Program-made: the position numbers and the translations under genes
Notes under the pieces: generated by a model
What the model was told of the DNA's origin: nothing
Databases searched by the model: none
The model's input: only the letters and a program-made list of their open reading frames with translations
Shown here: piece after piece, positions 12,285 through 37,994 of the stretch
Layout: each line of letters starts with the position of its first letter
Numbering within the stretch: position 1 is the first letter of the stretch
Source: Oscillospiraceae bacterium
GTDB lineage: Bacteria; Bacillota; Clostridia; Oscillospirales; Oscillospiraceae
DNA: 64,000 bases
NCBI GenBank assembly: GCA_902778115.1
Contig: CACYWG010000008.1
Span: forward strand, 1-64,000
Direction of reading: 5' to 3'

Positions 12285-12305
12285 TCCCATATAGGTTACG
12301 AATGA

Positions 12306-12332
12306 GGGGCGTGTATTGAAGATACACGCCCC
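12306..12332 (+). terminator. Terminator of ptsH
   Basis: GGGGCGTGTAT pairs with ATACACGCCCC across TGAAG, followed by TTAGGTTAT. A near-copy of the stem (GGGGCGTGTA with TACACGCCCC, 12525-12547) followed by TGTTTT lies just upstream of uvrC. Confidence 0.6.
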
Positions 12333-12377
12333 TTAGGTTATCCCCAAAAGCTGCTGTATCCGTTGAAAGAATCAGCT

Positions 12378-12525
12378 GGGGGAGCGCGAGGGGGCGACGC
12401 CCGCCTCGCAGTTCAATCAACCGCCGTCTGAAACAGACTGCCTGCGGCAGGCGGTTTCAGGTAATCGCATTTTGCGAAACAAAATGCGCGGCGGCCTTGC
12501 TTGTCAAATGTATTTGACAAGCAAG
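12378..12525. repeat. Branched structured intergenic repeat (copy 1)
   Basis: Shares with 37795-37955 the opening GGGGGAGCGCGAGGGGGC, a hairpin GCGAGG...CCTCGC, and a multibranch closed by CCGCCG (12421-12426) and CGGCGG (12489-12494). The branch holds two hairpins, CTGAAAC/GTTTCAG and GCATTTTG/CAAAATGC. A final hairpin, CTTGCTTGTCAAAT/ATTTGACAAGCAAG, ends the element. It lies 46 bp upstream of uvrC. The second copy keeps the pairing with different bases. Confidence 0.7.
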
Positions 12526-12554
12526 GGGCGTGTAGCATACACGCCCCTGTTTTC
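12525..12554 (+). terminator. Hairpin upstream of uvrC
   Basis: GGGGCGTGTA pairs with TACACGCCCC across GCA and is followed by TGTTTT. It resembles an intrinsic terminator and repeats the stem of the ptsH terminator. Confidence 0.5.
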
Positions 12555-37725: not shown

Positions 37726-37748
37726 CGGGCGCGGGATTCCCGCGCCCG
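37726..37748 (+). terminator. Hairpin after infB
   Basis: CGGGCGCGGG pairs with CCCGCGCCCG across ATT. There is no T-run, so it may stabilise or pause rather than terminate. Confidence 0.4.
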
Positions 37749-37794
37749 AAGCACAGAATTTGTTATTGAAAGAATTCAATCAAAACGGTGTCGC

Positions 37795-37955
37795 GGGGGA
37801 GCGCGAGGGGGCAAGGCCCGCCTCGCGTTTCGGTCATCCGCCGTCCGAAAAAGGCCGTGTCCCGGGCTTTTTCGGGTAAAGGCATTTTGACGGGTCAAAA
37901 TGCCCGGCGGCAGCAGCGCCGTCAAACAGTTCGTAAGAACTGATTGACAAGCTGC
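37795..37955. repeat. Branched structured intergenic repeat (copy 2)
   Basis: Same opening and fold as 12378-12525: GCGAGG/CCTCGC hairpin; CCGCCG (37838-37843) closing on CGGCGG (37905-37910); inside it CCGAAAAAG/CTTTTTCGG (37845-37875) and GGCATTTTGAC/GTCAAAATGCC (37881-37904); then CAGTTC/GAACTG flanked by GTCA and TGAC. Stem sequences differ from copy 1 but pairing is kept. It ends about 40 bp before rbfA. Confidence 0.7.
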
Positions 37956-37994
37956 GCGGGAGAGCCGCGCCCGGTTTTAATAGGAGGAATCGAA

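Follow-up and report, generated by a model that had tools for sequence, protein, structure and literature searches.

A structured repeat present twice in the 64,000-nt window (the whole stretch of DNA analysed, positions 1 to 64,000 of contig CACYWG010000008.1 of an Oscillospiraceae bacterium) is an element inserted at intrinsic-terminator hairpins, with the whole hairpin now standing on both sides; this hairpin, 20–42 bp long, is the target-site duplication. Since sister genomes carry a single hairpin, the state before insertion, the repeat is a mobile element that duplicates the hairpin. Considering all data jointly, we regard it as very probable that the repeat is a non-autonomous MITE residing at terminator hairpins, with ends of the IS1182 type and, least certainly, an interior kept for the sake of the element itself.

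Copies of the element and their insertion sites

A preliminary description of this DNA placed two copies at positions 12378-12525 and 37795-37955; both are present there with the shared segments claimed, and the stem substitutions it named between copies 1 and 2 are correct on re-reading. Its boundaries were wrong: the element is longer at both ends, the left end starting at ~12334 in copy 1 and at ~37749 in copy 2, and the duplicated terminator hairpins bracketing each copy had been overlooked. This correction changes the interpretation of the repeat. The 2.16-Mb genome contains three copies, two in the window and a third at contig 2:94939. The 18-mer GGGGGAGCGCGAGGGGGC has exactly three genome occurrences, the third being the one on contig 2, and a pattern search with the P1 core (see below) found the same three copies. 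Within the window, the 18-mer with up to 3 mismatches gave 3 matches versus 0.48 expected, a number reached in 0 of 100 shuffles.

From the outside in, the full element consists of a terminator copy, the left end TGAGACTGTCAAAAAACT, an AT-rich linker of ~30 bases, the hairpin P1, a three-way junction, a hairpin with the right end TTTTTTGACAAGCTGA, the other terminator copy and a T-tract. The P1 consensus is GGGGGAGCNCGAGGGGGC-NN-GCCCGCCTCGN and includes an invariant bulged G; the three-way junction is closed by CCGCCG/CGGCGG and carries stems A and B. The hairpin copies are separated by ~190-240 bp, too short a distance for a transposase gene, and no such gene is located inside.

Copy 1 (~190 bp, 12334..12523; all features are on the + strand) is situated between the HPr gene and uvrC. 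The left copy of the HPr gene terminator hairpin (12305..12333, inverted repeat AGGGGCGTGTAT/ATACACGCCCCT) is single in sister genome G272; the right copy, with GTTTT following, is at 12524..12548, and the right junction ACACGCCCCTGTTTTC is identical in G272. The sequence TAGGTTATCCCCAAAAGCT at 12334..12352 probably is a decayed left end, as it weakly matches the left-end consensus. P1 (12378..12413, GGGGGAGCGCGAGGGGGC-GAC-GCCCGCCTCGC with the bulged G) and the three-way junction (12421..12494; closing stem CCGCCG/CGGCGG, stem A 12428-12460, stem B 12466-12488) were delineated by fold and covariation. The right-end hairpin (12495..12526), compared with the IS-type right end, terminates in TTTGACAAGCA, and its last bases are also the first of the right terminator copy.

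Copy 2 (~205 bp, 37749..37953) lies upstream of rbfA, downstream of a gene that by context encodes IF-2. The terminator hairpin of the latter, an inverted repeat, is located at 37726..37748, and its right copy, then GTTTT, at 37954..37973; the flanking hairpins have the form CGGGCGCGGG-CCCGCGCCCG. Fold and covariation place P1 at 37795..37832 and the three-way junction at 37838..37910 (closing stem, stem A 37845-37875, stem B 37881-37904), while the right-end hairpin GTCAAACAGTTC/GAACTGATTGAC, ending in TTGACAAGCTG, occupies 37911..37953 by sequence reading and flank alignment. Copy 3 is flanked by two identical GAGGAAAGTCTTCGGACTTTCCTC hairpins.

Empty counterparts of these sites were found in related genomes. 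At the uvrC site of G272 (L200) the element is absent: the HPr gene is followed by one hairpin, GAGGGGCGTGTATTCTATATACACGCCCCTGTTTTC, and then by uvrC, with both junctions matching those of the genome under study; other genus members have one hairpin here too. Upstream of uvrC in G268 (L279, contig C19) one hairpin is followed by TTAGGTTATCCCC and uvrC, the rest of copy 1 being gone; this site is a deletion remnant that keeps the element's left end only. At the copy 3 locus G268 has one hairpin AAAAAGAGGAAAGTCAAATGACTTTCCTCTTTTTC, in place of the two identical copies around the element, and its alignment with our genome breaks with a 30-bp overlap exactly at the hairpin. The rbfA copy is common to three species (the genome under study, G268 at L219 and G272 at L220) and is missing in other relatives, e.g. 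at L231 and L237. The loops of its left and right flanking hairpins read ATT/ATT in G268, TAT/TAT in G272 and ATT/AGAG in our genome; as the loops are identical within G268 and within G272 and different between these species, concerted evolution of the two hairpins is suggested.

The nearness of copies 1 and 2 to uvrC and rbfA, pointed out earlier, is real, but it reflects insertion into the terminator of the preceding gene, and copies occur at many unrelated genes. A covariance-model search, recommended in the preliminary description, found copies in 27 of the 251 genomes of the bacterial family, with a maximum of 14 candidates scored per genome. The element is thus multi-copy at unrelated loci, with three copies in the genome under study and at least 14, 13, 11 and 7 in G120, G154, G209 and G104, respectively. 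In 10 of 40 copies local alignment of the left flank with the right one exceeded all 120 mismatched-flank controls; perfect hairpin duplications of 42, 37, 34, 29, 24 and 20 bp were observed. We relied on this test of duplication, as a stricter automated pairing of hairpins overlooked evident pairs, including the one around copy 3. Many of the distant model matches (below ~45 bits) had no clear duplication. Tandem arrays were observed at four loci (L174, L169, L180 and L286); at L174 and L286 the units are separated by one and the same terminator hairpin, as would be expected of repeated insertion into a duplicated hairpin. The element apparently uses terminators in both orientations, as visual inspection of T-runs and A-runs suggests.

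Several further observations concern the diversity of the repeat. Apparent nested insertions are located within the element's stems at L038 and L089. The same architecture with different stem sequences was seen at L061, L062 and L193-L198, a group that includes the P1 variant GTGAAGGGGGGC/GCCCGCCCTTCGC, with the linker CGAGCGAAGCGAG or a similar one at L061 and L062; these variants suggest a wider superfamily. Among 394 genomes searched outside the bacterial family, the exact P1 core was found only in two genomes from other families of the order, as single hits; it also appears in one contig of a viral collection (L293, position 5536). The 17-mer GGGGGAGCGCGAGGGGG was rejected as proof of homology, being present in GC-rich hairpins of many phyla, probably by convergence. 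With CCCCCTCGC after it, it recurs in hairpins from Rhodobacteraceae, Desulfovibrio, Lachnospiraceae and other groups, where the remainder of the element is lacking (L010-L128).

Terminal repeats and the candidate mobiliser

Young copies, e.g. those at L280, L285 and L287, have degenerate terminal inverted repeats TGAGACTGTCAAAAAAC / TTTTTTGACAAGCTGA, which are decayed in copies 1 and 2 of our genome. Comparison of sequences strongly supports the view that these repeats are of the kind on which DDE transposases of the IS1182 family act in the same bacterial family; the match between MITE and IS1182 ends extends over only ~15 degenerate bases. Transposases of the IS1182 family (NF033551) are encoded in 63 of 301 genomes of the bacterial family, and at 7 of the 30 loci fetched the IS1182 ends CAGNNTGTC[AG]AAAAA abut a hairpin. 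The IS1182 elements at L248 of G118, L243 and L242 are 1496-1571 bp long, with palindromic duplications of 31, 29 and 30 bp, and their proteins contain DDE_Tnp_1_6 and DUF772. That IS1182 elements of this bacterial family make the same hairpin duplications as the MITE is likewise strongly supported by their flanks.

Because its ends match those of IS1182 elements in the same bacterial family, the MITE was most likely cross-mobilised by an IS1182-type transposase. The ends and the choice of target are the basis of this assignment, since searches for an IS1182 transposase (NF033551) found none in the genome under study and none in ten carriers, the nearly complete G104 among them.

In five loci (L165, L190, L283, L062 and the IS1182 locus L247) the two terminator copies are loop-inverted (e.g. 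ACA/TGT, TTTCGCAA/TTGCGAAA, AAGATT/AATCTT); most other insertions are direct. Loop-inverted hairpin copies are not given by a plain staggered cut.

Fold of the interior and competing explanations

The folds of both copies in the window are much more stable than those of dinucleotide-shuffled sequences (z = -7.6 and -6.1). The covariation noted earlier between the two copies extends beyond them, and in an alignment of 44 distinct relatives it far exceeds both controls: 91.5% of the cells pair, and both-sided changes occur in 23 of 38 pairs (115 cells), counts that lean towards structure since the alignment was fitted to the model, the effect being large nonetheless. The covariation score was 0.205 versus 0.075 for shuffled and 0.030-0.046 for slid alignments, and all five covariation measures were above all 500 shuffles and the slid controls. 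Pairing is maintained in the interior of the element. To that extent the earlier proposal that pairing is selected for, in an RNA or in a DNA cruciform, finds partial support, selection being less certain than the pairing itself and selection at the RNA level less certain still; the same description had taken DNA-level mobility as evidence against its claim, and such mobility is evident from the empty sites, the hairpin target-site duplications and the IS-type ends. Covariation may come from RNA function, from DNA-hairpin function or from palindrome-correcting mutation; fold conservation need not mean RNA, as DNA hairpins related to transposition and palindrome-correcting mutation could produce it as well.

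One could suppose that the repeat is a structured cis-regulatory or small RNA between neighbouring genes, repeated only incidentally. Strong covariation and a stable fold would agree with such an RNA, as would the comparison of the rbfA site with G272, where the three structured segments have 5 differences in 155 positions versus 13/48 in the left linker and 52/400 at third codon positions (the structured parts change little; loops and linker drift). The comparison with G268, however, gives 11/155 versus 38/400 at third codon positions, i.e. no overall constraint, with changes mostly in loops. The sense strand folds slightly better than the antisense strand in 29 of 44 copies. G-U cells outnumber A-C cells by 49 to 21 over all pairs counted, but 20 of the G-U cells derive from one doubtful junction pair; excluding stem A gives 17 to 11, which favours neither strand clearly. 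Against such an RNA, the genes next to the copies are unrelated, most relatives lack the copy at the corresponding locus, and G268 has lost the greater part of one of them. No Rfam family matched at the gathering threshold, and no promoter-like sites were found in the elements. A known RNA family was also sought at a relaxed threshold and rejected, as the only matches were of 23-24 bits (E ~0.15) to unrelated sRNAs. Overall, we find the RNA explanation quite unlikely.

Covariation could also arise in the absence of selection if palindrome-correcting template switching keeps the arms complementary, as it would in any element rich in hairpins; this explanation applies to nothing but the interior and does not conflict with the MITE reading. 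The flanking terminator loops, which change in concert at rbfA or are inverted elsewhere, point to template switching or conversion at hairpins. In many copies P1 is conserved not only in its pairing but also in its sequence, which is more than arm correction alone would provide, and we treat this origin of the covariation as possible, if doubtful. As for a REP element mobilised by a RAYT (TnpA-REP) transposase, a short palindromic intergenic repeat with several copies per genome fits; long target-site duplications, however, are not expected of Y1 HUH chemistry, the ends match those of DDE IS1182 elements and the size is 190-240 bp, which makes this origin extremely improbable.

Proposed mechanism and relation to known elements

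The MITE reading leads to the following model. The transposase would recognise the palindromic target as a structure; each foot of the hairpin would receive one of its two strand transfers, and the hairpin would then be copied during gap repair. Insertion should be nearly harmless to the neighbours, because both adjacent genes keep an intact terminator, and the duplicated hairpin could be targeted again, giving rise to tandem arrays. The least certain step is that the interior (P1 and the three-way junction) would be kept because it matters to the element, possibly by folding as DNA during transposition or by insulating, as RNA, one terminator from the other. We hold it unlikely that selection acts on the interior as a functional structured RNA, or as a signal of folded DNA, which an IS1182-type transposase spreads to gene ends; if true, the element would represent a mobile module for regulation or insulation that enters terminators and leaves the host's own terminator intact on either side.

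The IS1182-family elements IS1272 and TnSha1 of staphylococci insert into terminator hairpins, deleting the hairpin without target duplication (PMC4923244, PMC5678879); a pathway duplicating the whole stem-loop was modelled in PMC5678879, and the hairpin duplications described here fit it. Like the transposase type indicated by the ends of the MITE, those of IS1272/TnSha1 are IS1182-family DDE enzymes, and the targets are stem-loops, mostly terminators, chosen by structure rather than sequence (PMC5678879, PMC4923244). In contrast to IS1272/TnSha1, which delete the hairpin and encode a transposase, the MITE duplicates the whole hairpin and encodes none. The IS1182 elements at L242, L243 and L248 resemble the MITE in their terminal repeats (CAGNNTGTC[AG]AAAAA) and duplicated hairpins of 29-31 bp; they differ in length (~1.5-1.57 kb), in having a transposase gene and in that the P1/three-way-junction interior was unseen at the ends read. 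With bacterial MITEs in general (e.g. MITEAba12) the element shares short length, lack of coding capacity, IS-derived ends and multiple copies, to which it adds hairpin-specific targeting, duplication of the whole hairpin and a conserved multi-stem interior. REP/BIME sequences are likewise short intergenic palindromic repeats, but differ in ends, size, flanking duplications and presumed transposase. No description of terminator-targeting MITEs or of the present element was found in the literature searched, most subscription journals being outside it; within these bounds, MITEs that duplicate hairpins and have a conserved interior of four stems appear to be new.

Terminator targeting by the IS1182 family was previously documented as hairpin replacement, whereas here elements of the same family, along with a MITE with matching ends, duplicate the hairpin. 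With these insertions, nature provides material for examining how a cruciform or hairpin is recognised by a DDE transposase and at which positions the enzyme cuts. They also call for caution, as covariation in repeated intergenic sequences can stem from transposons rather than from regulatory RNAs. For the element and its hosts, duplication of the terminator illustrates a nearly harmless landing strategy.
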